From Liolophura sinensis (Eukaryota > Mollusca > Polyplacophora > Chitonida > Chitonidae): 64,000 bases of DNA. Positions 2,947 to 60,759 of this stretch are shown piece by piece (the first letter of the stretch is position 1; every line of letters starts with the position of its first letter). Where the stretch lies: positions 48,163,385 through 48,227,384 of the forward strand of contig NC_088295.1 of the NCBI RefSeq assembly GCF_032854445.1, in the 5' to 3' direction. A model generated the notes under the pieces. That model was not told where the DNA came from, ran no database searches, and worked only from the letters and a program-made list of their open reading frames with translations. The position numbers were made by a program, and so were the translations under genes.

Positions 2947-5010
2947 GTAAGTATAAGCAAGTTACTGTTTTAATAATGGCATTTCTGTAATGTTTTCACA
3001 AAGTTTTTGTTCAACCTAAACACACTTTATTCATTTTCTGAAGTTGACTTACTGGACCACAATACGATGGATTTAAATCTGGACAGAAACTTGATTCTCT
3101 TCTTTAAATATATGTACATTACATTTCGTTGAGGTTATAGTGAACGGTATAGCGTCAAACAAGAATTAATGAATAACCAAAGCCACGTGATATTCATCAG
3201 TTGATTATACAGAATGGTATATTTACATCGTTAAAATTCCAAACAATATATAAATGTGTTCCATTTTCCGGAAGATCATGTTTTGGTATGACGTCCTGGT
3301 AAAAATCAATCGGCGCTCCCTATCTACTTCTTACGCAACTGTTATCAAATGAAGATTTTGCGCAAATATCTTGAACAAGGCCACGGTTACTGGGCAGCAG
3401 GTGATGTCATCAGTATAAAACTAGAACCCATGGGTTTAAAAGGGCATTAGTTATTATCACTGGAACCGCTGAGTTGAGTGAGCTAGCATCGGCTAAGAAT
3501 TAAGTCAGTGGCCTGCGTGATATGGCTTAAGGCTGGAGTACATAATTATAATTGAATGTTATTGAAACCAGTAACAAATAACGATTTGGTTGACGAGTTG
3601 GTGTGGTAGATCATGTTCAGTTTTCTAAGAGAAACTCAAAGCATGCCGAACACCGACACCGCATAACATTTTTCTCAGCGTCATACATGTACTGCAACCA
3701 CGGCCTTCCTTCCACCCCCTCTTTTAGGGATGATCGTGTGCGTTCTTCCCTGTCATACTGTACTACCGACGCCTATCTTCCTGTTGTAAATACCTTCCTG
3801 CTCACCCTCGTATAGGTCTTAAATAAATAAAACGCCATATGTAATTTAATTTAGACTTTACAAATTGCGCTGTTATGACGACAGAAATAAGACGACCACT
3901 GCGGCACAGCTTAAGCAGCATCAAGCCGGAAGCCTATGAATAGACGGTCTCGCACCTTGTTAAAAGCTTAATGGTTATTACTCATATATATTTGCCGGAC
4001 AAGGTACAAGGCCAGCCTATTGTACGACTTCCAACAGGGCGAGGGACGCCTGCTGGTGAACACTGGTGCCCGTACTGTAGCACTAAACACCGTTAAACGA
4101 AGAACAGAATCTTCCTCGAAAACAATACAATCTCACCAAAATAGAAAGAAGCTTAACAGTTTAGCGAAACAGATACACTCGTTTATAACGACATGTGTAC
4201 CTCCCAAAATTTTTCCTAGCCAAAGAGAGTAACTTTCGAACTTTACCAGCCCGTCAGCTTTTTTTACTTGCCACAAGTCCCGTTTTCACCCACAACAAAC
4301 ATTTTTTTAATCATGGCCTGGCCGAATCACTAGAAATGCGATTATTTTTGTATCATGCAGATAATGAGTGCGAACAGACAACACTAAACTTTTATTGTAA
4401 AGCAACATGATTTGACCGGTGTGTTATGAACTTTTGTACTTCAACGATGCACCAATCGGGCTTACATGCCCTAATAGAACAAAACCTTACGGAGACGCTA
4501 AACCACACCGCGGCAGTACACTCTAAAAGCGGAACTACTTCGGTAAATCGGTGACAATTTTCACCACCTCAGAAATGCTTCGCTTTCAGATCCTCCAAAA
4601 ACTCTGCTTCTGTTAATACTGAATATCTAGTACACAGGAGTTTCCTTTACCCAGAAGAATACACATTCATCAGGACTTCGAAAACATGGACGTTTATTAA
4701 GCATCCGCGTGTGTTATACAGGGTCGCAAGATAATAACTTTGTTAGTGGCCGCGGTGAAAACGGTGTGAGGAGCGGGGCATGCGCCGAAGAGGACAGTGA
4801 AACTACATTCTCTGAGCGCGAACTACTTTAGTCGAACTACTCTAAAACACGTATTACTATGAGTATTTGAAAATGGACACTGTTTACTTCACAGAAATTT
4901 CAAATGAACATAAAAGTAATCTGAAAAATATATTGCGTGTATTTGAAAATAATAACACTCTTGAACAAACCGATTTTAAATCAATTGTATTTTATGACTG
5001 TTTCTTGCAG

Positions 5011-5126
5011 ACCGAGAGGGTTGTTCCAGATCCACGTGTGAGTGTGACCTCCGTTTTGCTAAGTGTCTTAGCACAAAGAGATATAATCCAGACTACAAGA
5101 ACTATAAAAGCGGAGGACGGTGTTGA
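5011..5126 (+). CDS. PLA2 copy 1, exon 4 (C-terminal cysteine exon)
   Basis: The acceptor TTCTTGCAG ends at 5010. The phase-1 exon reads DREGCSRSTCECDLRFAKCL, then YNPDYKNY and a terminal GGRC before TGA (5124-5126). The CxCD..FAxCL pattern with the Asp (equivalent to Asp99 of pancreatic PLA2) is typical of the family. It aligns residue by residue with exon 4 of copy 2 and is four codons shorter at the C terminus. No lesion is visible. Confidence 0.9.
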
Positions 5127-5313
5127 ACGTAAAATAAACATCATCGATTATTAGGCGTCAGTCAAGGAACAATTCCGTCGAGGTTCTCTGGCTGTTGCCG
5201 TCAGACATGCTGTCATTGATGTTTTGTTTATCCGTTCACGTTAAAGTTTAAAATTTACAAGTTAACCAAATTTACAAAAGCACTGAAAATGTTCACTCTC
5301 GTACATGCCGACG

Positions 5314-17402: not shown

Positions 17403-17497
17403 TGTCAACAAGAGGTCAATATCGTGAAATGGGCGTCAGTCAGTCAAGGAACTGTTCCGTGGAGGTTCTTTGCCTACATCTGTAAGCTGGTGACGTG

Positions 17498-42634: not shown

Positions 42635-42767
42635 CTTCTGTGTGACAGTAGTGGATCCATAATTCTCGTGCCTCAAGTTCACGGACTTGCTCTCTCTTCC
42701 GGATCCTCCCGTGGACATGTGCATGTCTGATGTATCGGGCACTACATAACCCCGTCTGTCAATCAGG
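42635..42767 (-). CDS. ZDHHC: ZDHHC-type palmitoyltransferase exon (SLIDRRG)
   Basis: The - strand acceptor ATTATGTCGTAG ends at 42768. The first base completes Ser, then LIDRRGYVVPDTSDMHMS, TGGSGRESKSVNLRH and ENYGSTTVTQK; donor AAG|GTGAGG at 42635/42634. With the previous exon it reads NPPSLIDRRGYV, the stretch that in ZDHHC9/14/18 proteins follows the membrane domain (PPS.(L/I)DRRG). The rest is the variable cytosolic tail, rich in Ser, Thr and Gly. Confidence 0.93.
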
Positions 42768-44008: not shown

Positions 44009-44118
44009 CTTGGGGGATTGGGTCCACATAAAACTCCTAGACAGTTTTTGAAAATTGAGCCTTTGCTGTAAGGGTTAAAATTATCCTGACCTCGTTTTGA
44101 GGAAAACGAGCCTTTGAT
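44009..44118 (-). CDS. ZDHHC: ZDHHC-type palmitoyltransferase exon (NPYS...VLCGPNPP)
   Basis: The - strand acceptor ATCTCTACAG ends at 44119. The phase-0 frame reads IKGSFSSKRGQDNFNPYSKG, then SIFKNCLGVLCGPNPP. It ends AG|GTAAGA at 44009/44008, giving the split Ser with 42767. The NPYS..... .NC..VLCGP..PS pattern is the conserved block (PaCCT-like region) immediately after the TTxE motif in ZDHHC9/14/18. The previous exons end at ...QTTNED, so the join TTNED-IKGS matches the family. Confidence 0.95.
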
Positions 44119-44173: not shown

Positions 44174-44189
44174 AATCAATAGAACATAT

Positions 44190-44254
<65 letters not shown>
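44174..44254. repeat. (TA)n microsatellite
   Basis: A TACATA start and then about 33 TA units, only 55 nt upstream (gene sense) of the acceptor of the exon 44009-44118. A Tyr-Ile frame through it is a shadow. Confidence 0.95.
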
Positions 44255-44257
<3 letters not shown>

Positions 44258-44804
44258 ATAAGTGCGAGGTCTCAATACACCGCACATTCATATGTGTAAA
44301 TAACCATGTATCTTTTCAACAGTAATTTATTGTTTTATGCAGGCATGTTTTCCATATTACCAAACCTCAATAAACCTCTTATTTATCTGATATATTTATT
44401 TATTTGTCGTTTAAAACATAAGTGGTTTTAACTTTAACAATCGAGAGAAGAAAACTGGGATTACTAATAAACTAAATGATCTTCAACAAATGTAGCAGAC
44501 TGTGTAAACATTCACAAGTGTAGTCAACTTGACAGTTCAGGTATCTACAAATTTCCTGTTTTAAGTCGGGTTTGAACCTGCATTTAACCAAGAGTGACTG
44601 ACATAATGCACACATTTTGTAGATGGGTACATTGTCTTGCATTCTGTAATTGGGCCAAGCACTTCTAGATTCCCTGGCCCTCTTTGTTTGCCATTTGTGC
44701 TGCTCTATATTCTTTGAAGAACACATATCTTCCACCAAATTAGCATGCAGATCTGTTTGTCAAATATGGGAAAGTTAATTGTTATGAATAAAACTGCCAA
44801 AGGC

Positions 44805-45650: not shown

Positions 45651-46216
45651 AGGAGTGTCTGAGCATTTTAAGCCACTCACCACTGGCAATTTAATGACAA
45701 CTTTTTTCTGTGTGATGTATATATACATGTCTGCACACCATTCTGGTGGAAGAAAATTGGTCATCAACAAACGTTAAACTACGCAAATGGCCCCACGTGT
45801 CAACAACCGCTTTACACTGCCGCACAAAAAATTAACAAATTCCCTTGGCCATGTTTGGACTTATAGCCTTTAAACAAAGAAAACTCGTGTTCAGCTTCAA
45901 AAAGCTACCTTATTTAGGAATAAAAACAATCTAAACTGTTCTGCTGACCCATACACATGTACATGTATGTGGTAAGCATATATAATGTATACGTCTAAAC
46001 GTATAACATGGTATGAGAATAAAATTCTTTTAAAATCCAACTTTTGAAGAATTTGTGGGAGTTAAGATCGCTCTGATGAAATCCTAAACGCATAAAGAAG
46101 TCACGATCTCCTCGTGAAAGTTGCGGCCACTTCATGTGGAGTGATGGGATGCTGGTTGCTTTGAGTCAGCCAAGTTGGCCGTCTTTCACGTGACTGATAT
46201 ACCTGTATATACTTAC

Positions 46217-46319
46217 ATCCTCATTGGTAGTCTGTTCAGACGCAGCCAGATAGGAGTGGAAGCCAGCTAACCCCACAATGGACCACACAGAGAAGAAACA
46301 CACGATAGCCTCAATCACA
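46217..46319 (-). CDS. ZDHHC: ZDHHC exon A, mutually exclusive, AT-AC type acceptor
   Basis: Reads (S)[20 protein letters not shown], then [14 protein letters not shown]: the fourth membrane segment and the TTxE motif of DHHC palmitoyltransferases. The donor GAT|GTAAGT (46217/46216) is U2 type. On the - strand, upstream, TCCTTGAC (46338-46331) matches the U12 branch site. The AC at 46321-46320 lies 12 nt after the branch A, so the exon starts with T at 46319 and completes the Ser codon (AG|T) of the 52-nt exon. A U2-type start at 46345 (after ATCAG) is open, but it gives no family match before VIEA and its phase does not fit. The exon is 103 nt, exactly as in copy B at 48905-49007. Confidence 0.93.
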
Positions 46320-46330
46320 GTGAAATCAAA

Positions 46331-46338
46331 GTCAAGGA
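46331..46338 (-). promoter_or_regulatory. U12 branch-site motif before exon A
   Basis: TTTCCTTGAC on the - strand; the core TCCTTGAC is one base from the consensus TCCTTAAC. It is 12 nt from the AC acceptor, within the tight 10-15 nt spacing known for minor introns. Confidence 0.88.
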
Positions 46339-48904
46339 AATCAGGCTGATACAAACAGACAAGACTAAACATCCATGCCAGTAGAAAAATCCCAGCCAAC
46401 CAAAAACAATTACCTTCAGTATACATGAAACTTTTATAAACATATAGTAAATTAAGCAAGCTTTGATATCATTCCATACACACAAAAAGTATCCAACAAT
46501 TCTTCCATGCAACATAAACATATCAGCAACACTGTGGCACACAGTAAATTATTACTTTGTGAGTTCAAAAAAAAAAAAGGAAAAAAGTCCTGTAGAAAGT
46601 GAATATAGGTGTAATTAACTAATATAATTAAATGCCAGAGACTGATGAAAGCTCTCTAGAGTCCTAAATGGTTGGAGCTTGCAAGTATGCCCAGCTTTGC
46701 TTCCTACACCTGGTATGAAAATGAATGTTTTTTTTAAATTTTGACTATTAAAGATCGAAACAGGCTTCCAAGGAAGCTTGACCGTCAAAGCCAGGGTAAG
46801 AAGAAAGTGGGATGTCTGACACTTGACAGTAATCTGTGTGTCTCAAGCTTAGTTGGTTTCTATCATCCTGTTAACAGGACTGATGCCATCCTATCATTTT
46901 ACATGGCCTTGCCCAAACAAAGTTGTTATGAATTACATGTGTGTGTTTGTAATACAATTTTTCACTTACATGATGAGGAGTCGTAAGGTGTGTGCACATA
47001 CAGTATGTCTTCTGGTAGCTAAGTAAGTCCATGTACCTGTATCATGTCAAAGACAGGACACCTCACCCAGTCACATTACACTGACACTAGGTCAAACAGT
47101 CCTGTTTCCTTGCTCTAACCTCTCAGTACTGAATGCTAATGCTAGCAAGGCAGCAACAAGTATCAATTATAGAGTCTTTGGTATGATTTACGAATACGTG
47201 GCCTACTAATACGATTCAAAAAAGTCTACCTGTGTTGTGTAAAGGCTTGAATCTTCATGTAACCAAAAACTGTGTGGAGGATATCACAAAGATGGCCAGC
47301 AAAACAGCTCAATTCTAGCGATTAATACCTCAATTTGACCTGCTTGGTGCAAAGGGGTCATAAATGAGTCGATATCTCCAAGAAACAAGGATTCAAATTA
47401 AACAACTTTCATTAATTCTAAAGTTCCTTACAGTTCTTGTGCCAGTAGCATATTTTGGTTGTTCATTGTCCGCATCAGATATATACATCAACAACAATTT
47501 ATACAGCGTGTATCACACTCAATAGAACAAAAATAAAATATGACGTTATGATCCAGTCTTGGCTCAACAACCAGACACCCTCATTAGTACCTGTCCATAT
47601 AACGGTAATACAATCTGGTGACTTGTACAACTCTCCATGCTTCCCATAGCCTTGTTTTAATGTGGATGATGCTGCATGACAAATGCCTGCCTGTTGTAGC
47701 TGTGGCATTTCATCCAGCCATTTATTACCTCTTGATGACATTTCCAGCCAAGTTTCAGAGTATTACTTTGTCTAGGCCATGTTACCAGTGTTATGACTGC
47801 CACTATACAGACGTTATGGTCTCTCTGGGGAAGGGGGGAGGAGAAACCTTTAGTCCCAATTCCAGCTGCTACACCACATGTATCAACAACATGTCTATAT
47901 GTATACACGTAGGGATCCGTTCACGTGTCTGGGTACATGTTGCTGCCTTTCTACATTATTTGAAGACTAGAGGCGAGATTTAGGCTTTATATACCCATAC
48001 ATTCACACAACAGTACACATGTAGCACACTGCTACCAGCTCAAACATGTTCACCTGGTTTTAACAACTTTGTACAAACAGTTCCCACACTGTTTGCCATC
48101 CATATGTTAAGTCTTAAGATATTAATGTTAAGATACTAATTACCATTTGTTAACCAACATATGAATTACAAGGGCACTAAAGTGTCCAACAATCTGTGGT
48201 CACATCTGTTTTTCTTGTTAAAAAATGAGTTATTTATTCTCTTGAACAAAAAATTATTTTCCTTACCTACATTTCTAACAAAACTAGTGTTAATGTTCAA
48301 GGCTCAACCAAATGGTTCCCTTAACACATGAAAACATGAAACTTCAGCACACATGTGAAAGTTAAACCATCTTGAGAACTGTCTTCATGTTCGATACTAT
48401 TAGCCCTGTTTCCAGATCTCAACACTTGAATGAATTGTTTTCCTTTTTCTGGTTTGTTCCCTAGTATTTCCTGAAGCTGGAATAAAGCTGATGCAATGTT
48501 CAATGATGAAACTTCACTATCCTCTTGTGCCATGGTTGAAATCCACAAACCTTGAATTACAAAACGATACCTTTTTTCCACCATGGTTAAATTTCTTTGT
48601 TCTACACCGAATGTCGCATACATATACGTACAAGTATGTGTCAACAAAAAGAAAGCAATGTCAAAGTTTCCCTGAGATGAAGAAGTAAACTACAATCACA
48701 ACAAAAAAACAATTCATTCTAAAAATGTACGAAGGTTTACGTCCACATACAAAATAAAACTGATGTTCCATGCCCCACGAATCGTGCAAACACATAAACT
48801 GCAATGAAAACAATGACAAAGTCAGCATACATGTATATGCCACCTACAAAGCCATTTGCCAGTAGCAAGGCTAAAGAGCTCCATGTTCAAGGGAGACTAC
48901 TCAC

Positions 48905-49007
48905 ATCTTCATTAGTGGTCTGTTCAGATGTAGCCAGGTAGGTATGGAAGCCTGCCAGGCCAATGATGGACCAGACCGAGAAGAAGCAGATGATGGCCTC
49001 TACAATG
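48905..49007 (-). CDS. ZDHHC: ZDHHC exon B, mutually exclusive, AT-AC type acceptor
   Basis: Reads (S)[20 protein letters not shown], then [14 protein letters not shown], a second version of the same membrane segment and TTxE motif. Donor GAT|GTGAGT (48905/48904) is U2 type. Upstream on the - strand CTCCTTAAC contains the exact U12 branch consensus TCCTTAAC (49025-49018). The AC at 49009-49008 is 11 nt after the branch A, and the exon starts with C at 49007, completing Ser (AG|C). In that frame a TAA lies just before the AC, so no longer exon is possible. 103 nt, the same phases as exon A; 14 synonymous codon differences against 6 replacement ones, all conservative. Confidence 0.92.
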
Positions 49008-49017
49008 GTGCACAGAT

Positions 49018-49025
49018 GTTAAGGA
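49018..49025 (-). promoter_or_regulatory. U12 branch-site motif before exon B
   Basis: TCCTTAAC on the - strand, a perfect match to the minor-spliceosome branch-site consensus, 11 nt before the AC dinucleotide. Confidence 0.9.
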
Positions 49026-49102
49026 GGTTTGTCAGTGGTGAGTACGCCAGACTGGAGACCACTTCTACTATACAATCACAGCACACACGTGTACTTCTCC
49101 AT

Positions 49103-49271
49103 AGTTCAAGTCCAGCTCATGCTGGCTTCCTCTCCGGCCTTACGTGCAAAGGTCTGCCAGAAGCCTGCAGATGGCCGTGGGATTCCTAAACCTGGTTTCC
49201 TGCTACAATAACACTGGCTGCCTTCGTATAAGTGTGAAATATTCTTGAATAAGGCTTAAAACACCAATCAA
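49103..49271 (+). repeat. SINE family A, 5'-truncated, left half of an inverted pair
   Basis: 'gttcaagtccagctcatgct' to 'ttgaataaggcttaaaacac'. It lies 78-246 nt upstream (gene sense) of the exon B branch site and is antisense to the gene. Confidence 0.88.
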
Positions 49272-49309
49272 AATAACTATTTCTCCATAACCTGTTCTTC
49301 AAGATTTTT

Positions 49310-49518
49310 TTTTTTTATTTATTTGATTGGTGTTTTACATCCTACACAAGAATATTTCATTTATACGACAGTGGCCAGCATTATGGTGGGAGGAAACCGG
49401 GCAGAGCCCAGGGAAAACCCACGACCATCCGAAGGTTACTGACTGACCTTCGCACATACGACCGCATTGGTGAGAGCTTCCGCGCTAGCGCGCTAACCAA
49501 CTGAGCCATAAAGGCCCC
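49310..49518 (-). repeat. SINE family A, right half of an inverted pair
   Basis: Antisense copy from 'atttgattggtgttttacat' to the head 'gctaaccaactgagccata'. About 40 bp separates it from the opposite copy, so transcripts of this intron could fold into a long imperfect hairpin. Confidence 0.9.
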
Positions 49519-51485
49519 CTGCTCTTAAAGATGCCTGATCCACACGAAATGGTAAAGAAATATGAAGGTTTCAAGACACCACGTTACAACAACAGAATGA
49601 TATCGCTTTGTGACATGACATTGTCGTTTCACAGCACAGTAGGGCCAATCTGGTAATTGTAACATGGGGTGGTATATAGAATATAAAATCTAAATAAAAA
49701 TGATTAGACTGATCTTCTGAATTACGTTCTTGGGTGGGCTTGGGTTTCCACTGTTGCAAAAAAAAGGATGTTCTGCTGTTTGATCTCATCATGATCAGTT
49801 CCACGTTAAAAGATAGACAAGTAGCCCTACTGTGCCGATGGCATTTTTACTCTGGGATCTCACCCTGTTGTCACAGTGAAGTAACTCGCAAACTCTAAAT
49901 TGTGACTGGAATCATCCACAGGTTTACATAATATGTGCAAGATGAAGAATATAACCGATATGCTTAATGTATTGCAACATATGAACTAGTCCTTGCTTGA
50001 ACAATTATCCACTGGACCACCATACACACTGCAGCTACACATGTTATCTATGTAGGACGCGATACGGCTATCTGCAATATGACAAAACTGACAATCTGAG
50101 CAGAATCTGATCAACATCCTTGAGGGATGTAGACGTTGACATAGGTTTGATACTGTACATGTACATATGATTGGCCAAATTAAAAATTAAAGAATTTTTC
50201 AATTTTGCTGAAAAATGAAAATTGTCATTCATTATAATAAATAGTAATGATGAACATGCAATACATGATTTTCTTGACACATTTCACACATTCCCAGGTC
50301 ATACATTTAAATATGAAGGTGTGTTCTGCCAAAAAATATCTTCATACACCTCTGTCCTGGCACACAAAAACCAGGAAAATGCACACCTCAGAACAAAGAA
50401 ATAATTTGTTTTGTACAAAAACAACACCTAAAACTACGCACCAATCTAATTTATGTGTGAAATGGTTGAGAAGACAAGGCAATATAAACATCAGTGCCAA
50501 CAATACCAGTTACATGTAATAGTGTCATTAGTAAACATTTGCATACCAAAAACATTTGGTGATCAGACTATGCAAACCCAGGTGAATGTGAAAGTATTAT
50601 CAAGAAATGATACATGAACAACCAATGTGATGATAAAATTGTGCAAGCAGGCTTAAAGTGCTATCTACATAAACACGTACTCTTTGCAAAGTGCCTAACA
50701 ACTGTATCAGCATGTAAATCCCTTAGTAAACCTTTAAATATTTTAGTGAAATTAAGTGTCAGCCATAGAGAGACTATGATGCAAAGCATGTCAATGTACC
50801 AGAAGCATATACAGCACATAAAACCTCAATCTTACGGTTCAGACATACGTTGTTCGTTTAGTTCCTGTCACCCAAAATCAGGAATAAGAAAGGCTGTATT
50901 TAACTTGTTTGACAGCTTTAGAGCCAGCCTAGCTAATCAAGCACCTGAATTGTTTCGGAGTCTTATGAAAACATACATGAATGATTTTTATCCAAGGCTA
51001 TCTGGCAGTCACTCACTTTGACTGATGTCCTACTGAGTGACCATTATGAAAATAGTTTTGAGGTTTGTTTAGAAGACCGAATGATAACTTACTGGCCAAA
51101 AATCAAAATCAAGATTTTATGACAATTTTTTGGATACATAAAAACGCATTTTTGGGAAGATAATAATTTACTTTATTCCACCCAAGAGTGCCATGATTAA
51201 AAGTTCAATTAAGTCCTGACTGTCATGGACAATCATGGTTTCACACCACTTTAGCAGTCAAGGCAGTATGGCAGCCCTATTGTGACAACAAAGTGCGGAA
51301 AAAATATTCCTTATGCCAACATTCATATTCTTTATGTCAAATAAACAAATATCTCAATAACAATCAAACAGATCTAAAACAGTGACTTCTGGGTAACAGA
51401 CAAAGGTTTCCTCAGGATTTACATGTTAATGCTGTTGGGTGAAAAAATCTGAACAATCTTGTTTTGATGTTGTAGATTGCTTTGC

Positions 51486-51496
51486 AAAAAGGATAT
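51486..51496 (-). promoter_or_regulatory. U12-type AT-AC 5' splice site
   Basis: ATATCCTTTTT on the - strand directly after the 52-nt exon. The strict ATATCCTT motif is rarely seen by chance at a splice boundary. It can pair only with U12-type AC acceptors, as found before exons A and B. Confidence 0.92.
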
Positions 51497-51548
51497 CTAG
51501 CAGGAGAGTCTCGCATGGCATGTAGGAAATTCCCCCCATCTTGTGACC
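51497..51548 (-). CDS. ZDHHC: ZDHHC 52-nt exon with U12-type AT donor
   Basis: The - strand acceptor TTCTGTTTACAG ends at 51549. GG completes Arg from the DHHC exon, then SQDGGNFLHAMRDSPA and the start of Ser. The sequence after it is ATATCCTTTTT (51496 downward), a full match to the U12 5' splice-site consensus, and there is no GT donor in place. The product spans the luminal loop between membrane segments 3 and 4, like the 'FL..(I/L)K.(S/T)P.(S/T)' stretch of ZDHHC9/14/18. Both neighbours on either side fit in phase, so the exon is well supported in spite of its size. Confidence 0.92.
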
Positions 51549-60621: not shown

Positions 60622-60759
60622 GTAATATCAAATGGGTGAGCACGCATGCAAAGATATAAATACACAGTACGGACAGAGAGAGGATAAACAAATAGAAGTA
60701 ACGATAGTTCCTCCTTCCCACGCAGTTCCCTACCCAGGGACAGTGATGATCAAACCTCT
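60622..60759 (-). CDS. ZDHHC: ZDHHC-type palmitoyltransferase, DHHC catalytic exon; gene description
   Basis: The exon reads (E)[18 protein letters not shown], then [20 protein letters not shown] and VLTHLIL. DHHC with the catalytic Cys, the zinc-ligand cysteines and the following third membrane segment identify a protein S-palmitoyltransferase. The words [13 protein letters not shown]..... YIFA fit the ZDHHC9/14/18 branch. Role known for the family: transfer of palmitate to cytosolic cysteines of membrane proteins, in Golgi or plasma membrane. Acceptor GTTTTGTGTTTCAG ends at 60760; donor TTAC|GTAAGT at 60622/60621 (phase 1). Exons for the N terminus, first two membrane segments and the first half of the cysteine-rich domain are not in the window. 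Upstream to 64000 I found none. Confidence 0.97.

Follow-up and report, generated by a model that had tools for sequence, protein, structure and literature searches.

Incompatibility between U2-type (major) and U12-type (minor) splice sites is one route by which alternative exons can be kept mutually exclusive, and in the passages surveyed, to which our statements about the literature refer throughout, this route has so far been named for the JNK and TMEM87 genes, and always in the same orientation. In both MAPK8/9 (JNK) and TMEM87a/b, the competition is between two U2 acceptors and two U12 donors (PMC8329584). The alternative exons 6a and 6b of MAPK8/9 have a U2 intron on one side and a U12 intron on the other, and the intron that separates them combines sites of the two classes (PMC3584512, PMC8329584); exons 11 and 11a of TMEM87a/b are exclusive through the same competition of sites and are equal in length, at 72 bp in mouse Tmem87b (PMC6717393, PMC8329584). 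The prospero twintron of Drosophila also combines U12 AT-AC and U2 sites to yield alternative protein isoforms (PMC3584512, PMC2831892). Here we describe a locus in the chiton Liolophura sinensis where a duplicated exon pair in a palmitoyltransferase gene of the ZDHHC9/14/18 type presents the opposite orientation, with U12-type acceptors and U2-type donors on the alternative exons. The gene lies on the minus strand of a window of 64,000 nucleotides (nt; contig NC_088295.1, positions 48,163,385 to 48,227,384), and coordinates below are those of the window.

Upstream of the pair lies an exon of 52 nt, e5 (51497-51548, SQDGGNFLHAMRDSPA), which ends in phase 2 directly before the U12-type AT donor ATATCCTTTTT (51486-51496); the core of this donor, ATATCCTTT, agrees with the U12 consensus RTATCCTTT at 9/9 positions. 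Two exons of 103 nt follow, exon B (48905-49007) and exon A (46217-46319), identical at 77/103 nt and encoding what we take to be the fourth transmembrane segment (TM4) and TTxE region of the enzyme. Exon B is preceded by the U12 branch motif TCCTTAAC (49018-49025) with acceptor CAC and followed by the U2-type donor GTGAGT (48899-48904); exon A is flanked in the same way by TCCTTGAC (46331-46338), CAC, and the U2-type donor GTAAGT (46211-46216). Compared with TTCCTTRAC, the branch sequences match at 8/9 positions for exon B (CTCCTTAAC) and 9/9 for exon A (TTCCTTGAC), and the distance from the branch adenine to the first exon base is 12 nt for B and 13 nt for A. By its donor, and by the branch and acceptor of either copy, the intron leading from e5 to the pair is of the U12 AT-AC type, and each alternative exon has splice sites of different classes on its two sides, as U2/U12 incompatibility requires. 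The terminal AG of e5, immediately before the intron, fits this assignment: AG at that exon end is described as absent in GT-AG U12 introns, with weaker pressure expected for AU-AC introns (PMC10853781).

Splicing e5 to B or to A yields a single open frame through e7 (44009-44118), while including both copies, or neither, shifts the frame into stops. A preliminary description of this DNA had proposed the 52-nt exon with its minor-spliceosome donor, the U12 branch motifs and AC acceptors at 11-12 nt (a count made to the last intron base), U2-type donors on both copies, and two exons of 103 nt with the frame consequences just given; it also implied an exon boundary at 44009, which the splice site of e7 bears out. 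The exon pair holds up on re-examination of coordinates, lengths and sites, including the comparison with U12 consensus sequences that had been suggested as a check, and the sequence supports the broader interpretation as to gene family, the two alternative exons, the AT-AC intron, the U2-type donors and the consequences for the frame.

We consider it likely that the two copies became mutually exclusive by splice-site class through tandem duplication of an exon flanked by a U12 and a U2 intron. An ancestral exon of this ZDHHC9/14/18-type gene would have followed an old U12 intron and preceded a U2 intron; because the duplicated exon sat between introns of the two classes, each tandem copy would have kept a U12 branch and AC acceptor at its left and a U2 GT donor at its right. 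The U12 AT donor of e5 could then pair with the acceptor of either copy, and the U2 donor of either copy with the U2 acceptor of e7. To splice B to A, a U2 donor would have to be used with a U12 AC acceptor, a pairing that neither spliceosome is expected to handle, and it is this class mismatch in the B-A intron that would cause one copy to be chosen; products with both copies or neither would be frame-shifted and are expected to decay. The predicted outcome is two enzyme isoforms, both of them made, with six conservative differences in the TM4-to-TTxE stretch. B-A joining should be absent, and the choice of copy may vary with tissue and affect acyl or substrate preference.

The preliminary description had likened the arrangement to the JNK kinases. 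The principle is indeed shared, since alternatives between U2 and U12 introns are separated by an intron with sites of two classes, but the orientation is mirrored. JNK has two U2 acceptors and two U12 donors with the U12 intron downstream, whereas the chiton locus has two U12 AC acceptors and two U2 donors with an AT-AC U12 intron upstream; the U12 donors on alternative exons that typify JNK and TMEM87 are replaced here by GTGAGT and GTAAGT, and the U12 sites are the acceptors. TMEM87, oriented as JNK, differs further in that its 72-nt exons keep the frame and the 103-nt exons of the chiton break it. In prospero the introns overlap and there is no duplicated exon pair. We lean towards regarding the chiton locus as the JNK switch in mirror image: the duplicated sites of the U12 class are AC acceptors instead of donors, and the arrangement would follow automatically from duplication of an exon next to an ancient U12 intron of the DHHC family. 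The AT-AC subtype may in addition tighten exclusion. Such tightening, relative to the GT-AG subtype found in a ZDHHC5/8-type paralogue (below), might be expected because an AC acceptor is useless to a U2 donor, whereas the AG acceptors of U12 introns are sometimes taken by the U2 machinery. AU-AC introns are apparently poorly recognised by the U2 spliceosome (PMC10853781), whereas in MAPK12 a U2 donor is spliced to the 3' site of a U12 intron when the minor spliceosome fails (PMC8329584).

Chance occurrence of these sites can be gauged from the window itself. On both strands together (128,000 positions), ATATCCTTT occurs twice and TCCTTRAC seven times; among 8,047 AC dinucleotides, five have TCCTTRAC at U12 distance, and the acceptors of B and A are two of the five. 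Multiplied by hand, the background rates put the chance of an exact donor together with two exact acceptors, all at specified places, at roughly 2e-12, a figure to be read as approximate. A few look-alikes are present. TTCCTTGACTGAC motifs at 17434-17451 and 5156-5169 resemble a U12 branch with an AC acceptor; these are probably no splice sites, because 17.4-18.2 kb looks like a repeat array in the list of open reading frames. A weak U12-donor-like ATATCCT followed by CC lies at 47284 on the minus strand, within the B-A intron.

The divergence of the two copies bears on whether both are in use. Exons A and B differ by 18.5 synonymous and 7.5 non-synonymous changes, with a proportion of 0.76 at synonymous sites (pS, saturated) and 0.09 at non-synonymous sites (pN), and amino acids differ at 6/35 codons. 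When 26 random substitutions were simulated in exon B, every one of 5,000 trials produced at least 10 residue changes, and 53% produced a stop. Saturation at synonymous sites together with so few residue changes suggests constraint on the coding sequence of both copies and an old duplication. It is quite unlikely that one copy is silent in practice, having recently fallen out of use or being used very rarely, which would leave a duplication without a working switch: the B and A peptides are nearly equivalent, as that explanation would have it, but both copies retain frame, length, branch motif, acceptor and donor, and a long-unused exon should carry many more residue changes, given the saturated synonymous sites. 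When 200 nt of flank were included at either end, the copies aligned best from base 8 of the exon to a point 7 bases beyond the donor, and among the alignments listed nothing convincing pointed to intron homology beyond the exon and those 7 donor-side bases. A sliding six-frame comparison of the window, made for a third copy, returned only A and B. Across the genome (609,464,459 bases in 632 contigs), a search with a 99-residue segment listed three matches among the best candidates scored, namely e7, B and A of this locus.

Read as B/A, the six residue differences are I/V, V/I, I/V, I/V, T/S and T/A, and by hand count they align with residues 226, 227, 231, 240, 247 and 251 of the ZDHHC9 chain 8hf3_A. 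They would be expected to tune helix packing; no new activity is expected of them.

Exclusion by class may not be complete. A U2-like AG (CAG; 46346-46347, minus strand), preceded by a T-rich tract, would place a cut 26 nt upstream of the AC acceptor of exon A. Were exon B joined at 46345, 129 nt would be added in frame, with B, the 26 nt and A all open, and the product would have a double TM4; frame does not guard this route, because the combined segment stays in frame. The claim that B-A joining is blocked by spliceosome class stands for the AC acceptor of exon A, but not for this AG, which offers a possible in-frame path from B to A. In a crude model built from the six U2 acceptors of the host gene, the AG scores 4.4 bits, compared with -0.7 to 13.0 (leave-one-out) for those acceptors themselves. 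A leaky, twintron-like arrangement can thus be envisioned, in which the AG is used with the GT donor of exon B, a double-TM4 isoform is also made and exclusion is partial; overlapping U2 and U12 sites are known elsewhere, as in the prospero twintron (PMC3584512). We regard it as unlikely. Membrane topology would probably be disturbed by a second TM4 and TTxE, and, with only six sites behind the score, about 66 of the 952 minus-strand AGs between 44130 and 60600 (a fraction of 0.069) score as high or higher, a rank that can be held in favour of the leak as well as against it.

Some observations weigh against exclusion by splice-site class. The AG upstream of exon A scores inside the range of the gene's own acceptors, so that an in-frame double-TM4 product is possible; the six differences between the copies are mild enough that they do not obviously imply distinct functions; and JNK, the textbook case, showed a single exon copy in the stretch of this genome that was searched, so that this type of switch is not general in the host genome. 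The chiton JNK gene does have a U12 GT-AG intron (donor GTATCCTTT, 9/9; branch 7/9 at 13 nt; positions 4965-5039 of the JNK stretch L026), and a permissive tblastn search (E up to 100) of 9.5 kb did not find a second copy of the exon directly before this intron, the one that is paired in vertebrates. JNK was accordingly set aside as a second example of an exon pair in this genome.

The machinery for U12 splicing is present in the host, judging from its RNA genes. Genome matches were found for U6atac (two, the best with an E-value of 6.1e-23) and U11 (two), and for the U12 small nuclear RNA four of five matches were over the cut-off. Molluscs are named among the groups relatively enriched in minor introns (PMC10639083). 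The genome paper for Liolophura japonica lists RNA-seq from five tissues, namely digestive gland, foot, gill, gonad and heart (SAMN35319765-SAMN35319769; PMC11068029).

Means other than splice-site class could also enforce a choice between exons, among them competing RNA structures, splicing factors and decay of frame-shifted products, with spliceosome class reduced to a minor part. In human, U2/U12 incompatibility was invoked for only 5 (0.79%) of 629 clusters of mutually exclusive exons and possible steric interference for 57 (9%), and 377 (60%) hold exons with a length not divisible by three (PMC5740500). At the chiton locus, inverted repeats are in addition predicted to form a highly stable hairpin that ends about 105 nt short of exon B. 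Its arms are two oppositely oriented stretches at 49114-49507 (minus strand) that resemble copies of a single short interspersed repeat, and the predicted structure (49060-49545) has a free energy of -209.8 kcal/mol and a z-score of -12.7, with 0/100 shuffled sequences as stable. The predicted hairpin lies inside the e5-B intron, however, and pairs with itself rather than across the alternatives, and the class mismatch is present whatever else acts; we judge it very unlikely that these other means carry most of the exclusion. The search for competing structures covered inverted repeats, as the 25 longest of 54 pairs. The hairpin could possibly be an editing target or influence the choice of exon B.

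The same genome has a ZDHHC5/8-type paralogue (C10:4985368-4989512) with a U12 GT-AG intron (donor GTATCCTTT and branch GACCTTGAC, 7/9 at 12 nt; positions 3521 and 5609 of stretch L043). This phase-2 intron interrupts the codon that lies 30 codons ahead of TTNE, and so does the intron before B and A, also in phase 2. Given this agreement in codon and phase with ZDHHC5/8, the AT-AC intron is probably older than the exon pair. The two loci differ in intron subtype and in that only a single downstream exon was found in the paralogue: a search for an exon pair there gave a single copy in 9.9 kb. Intron 4 of ZDHHC8 is listed as U12 GT-AG in fly and human (PMC2831892). From the two chiton genes of this one genome, the simplest account would be a single U12 intron that predates the split of the two DHHC genes and whose subtype today is AT-AC in the one and GT-AG in the other, with the exon duplication in the gene that has AT-AC.

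The host gene itself is identified by sequence as a ZDHHC9/14/18 palmitoyltransferase, with 9, 14 and 18 not told apart; the family assigned by the preliminary description is borne out by a match to the Pfam DHHC domain PF01529 (E 1.6e-38 for the B form and 3.5e-38 for the A form) and by ZDHHC9 as the top solved structure for the B form (8hf3_A, E 2.3e-135), well before ZDHHC5 (9oa6_A, 7.7e-53). The accessory protein GCP16 is named as stabilising the DHHC9 subfamily (PMC10076531). Exons were sought by tblastn with human ZDHHC9 and ZDHHC14 queries, and splice sites were then placed. Eight coding positions, e1 to e8, resulted, with the alternative exon as the sixth. The window holds part of the gene; e1 to e3 lie beyond the window end, in adjoining DNA. 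Exon e4 (60622-60759), constitutive and encoding the DHHC core, was placed by tblastn and splice sites and has the donor GTAAGT; e7 (IKGSFSSKRGQDNFNPYSKGSIFKNCLGVLCGPNPP) has the U2 acceptor CTACAG and donor GTAAGA; and e8 (42635-42767, beginning SLIDRRGYVVPDTS) has GT-AG flanks. Both ends were placed for the GT-AG introns e1-e2, e2-e3, e3-e4, e4-e5 and e7-e8; the acceptor of e7 is AG and the donor of e8 is GT. Each spliced form, B or A, comes to 335 residues and is open at its C-terminus; there are two more in-frame ATGs upstream of the start codon taken. A long (AT)n tract occupies 44184-44263, about 65 nt upstream of the e7 acceptor.

No mutually exclusive exon pair in a ZDHHC gene was seen in the titles, abstracts and passages among the literature matches listed, and ZDHHC is absent from the main text of PMC6717393, PMC5740500, PMC9741552, PMC6865273 and PMC10853781. 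A ZDHHC16 minigene report (PMC4863743) was considered and proved unrelated to the exon pair. Among 81 pattern-matched stretches in genome-contig collections of prokaryotes, viruses and plasmids, with the viral part left out, none encoded a relative by tblastn. The five human clusters attributed to U2/U12 incompatibility in PMC5740500 may include a case of the mirror type.

A case of opposite orientation, in a different gene family and a different phylum, suggests a rule: duplicating an exon at the border of a U12 and a U2 intron would yield mutual exclusion for free. Under such a rule no evolved regulator would be needed at the birth of an exclusive pair, and a prediction would follow for every gene with a minor intron. 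For the chiton, if the account is true, the consequence would be a splice-controlled change in the membrane helix of a lipid-transfer enzyme.

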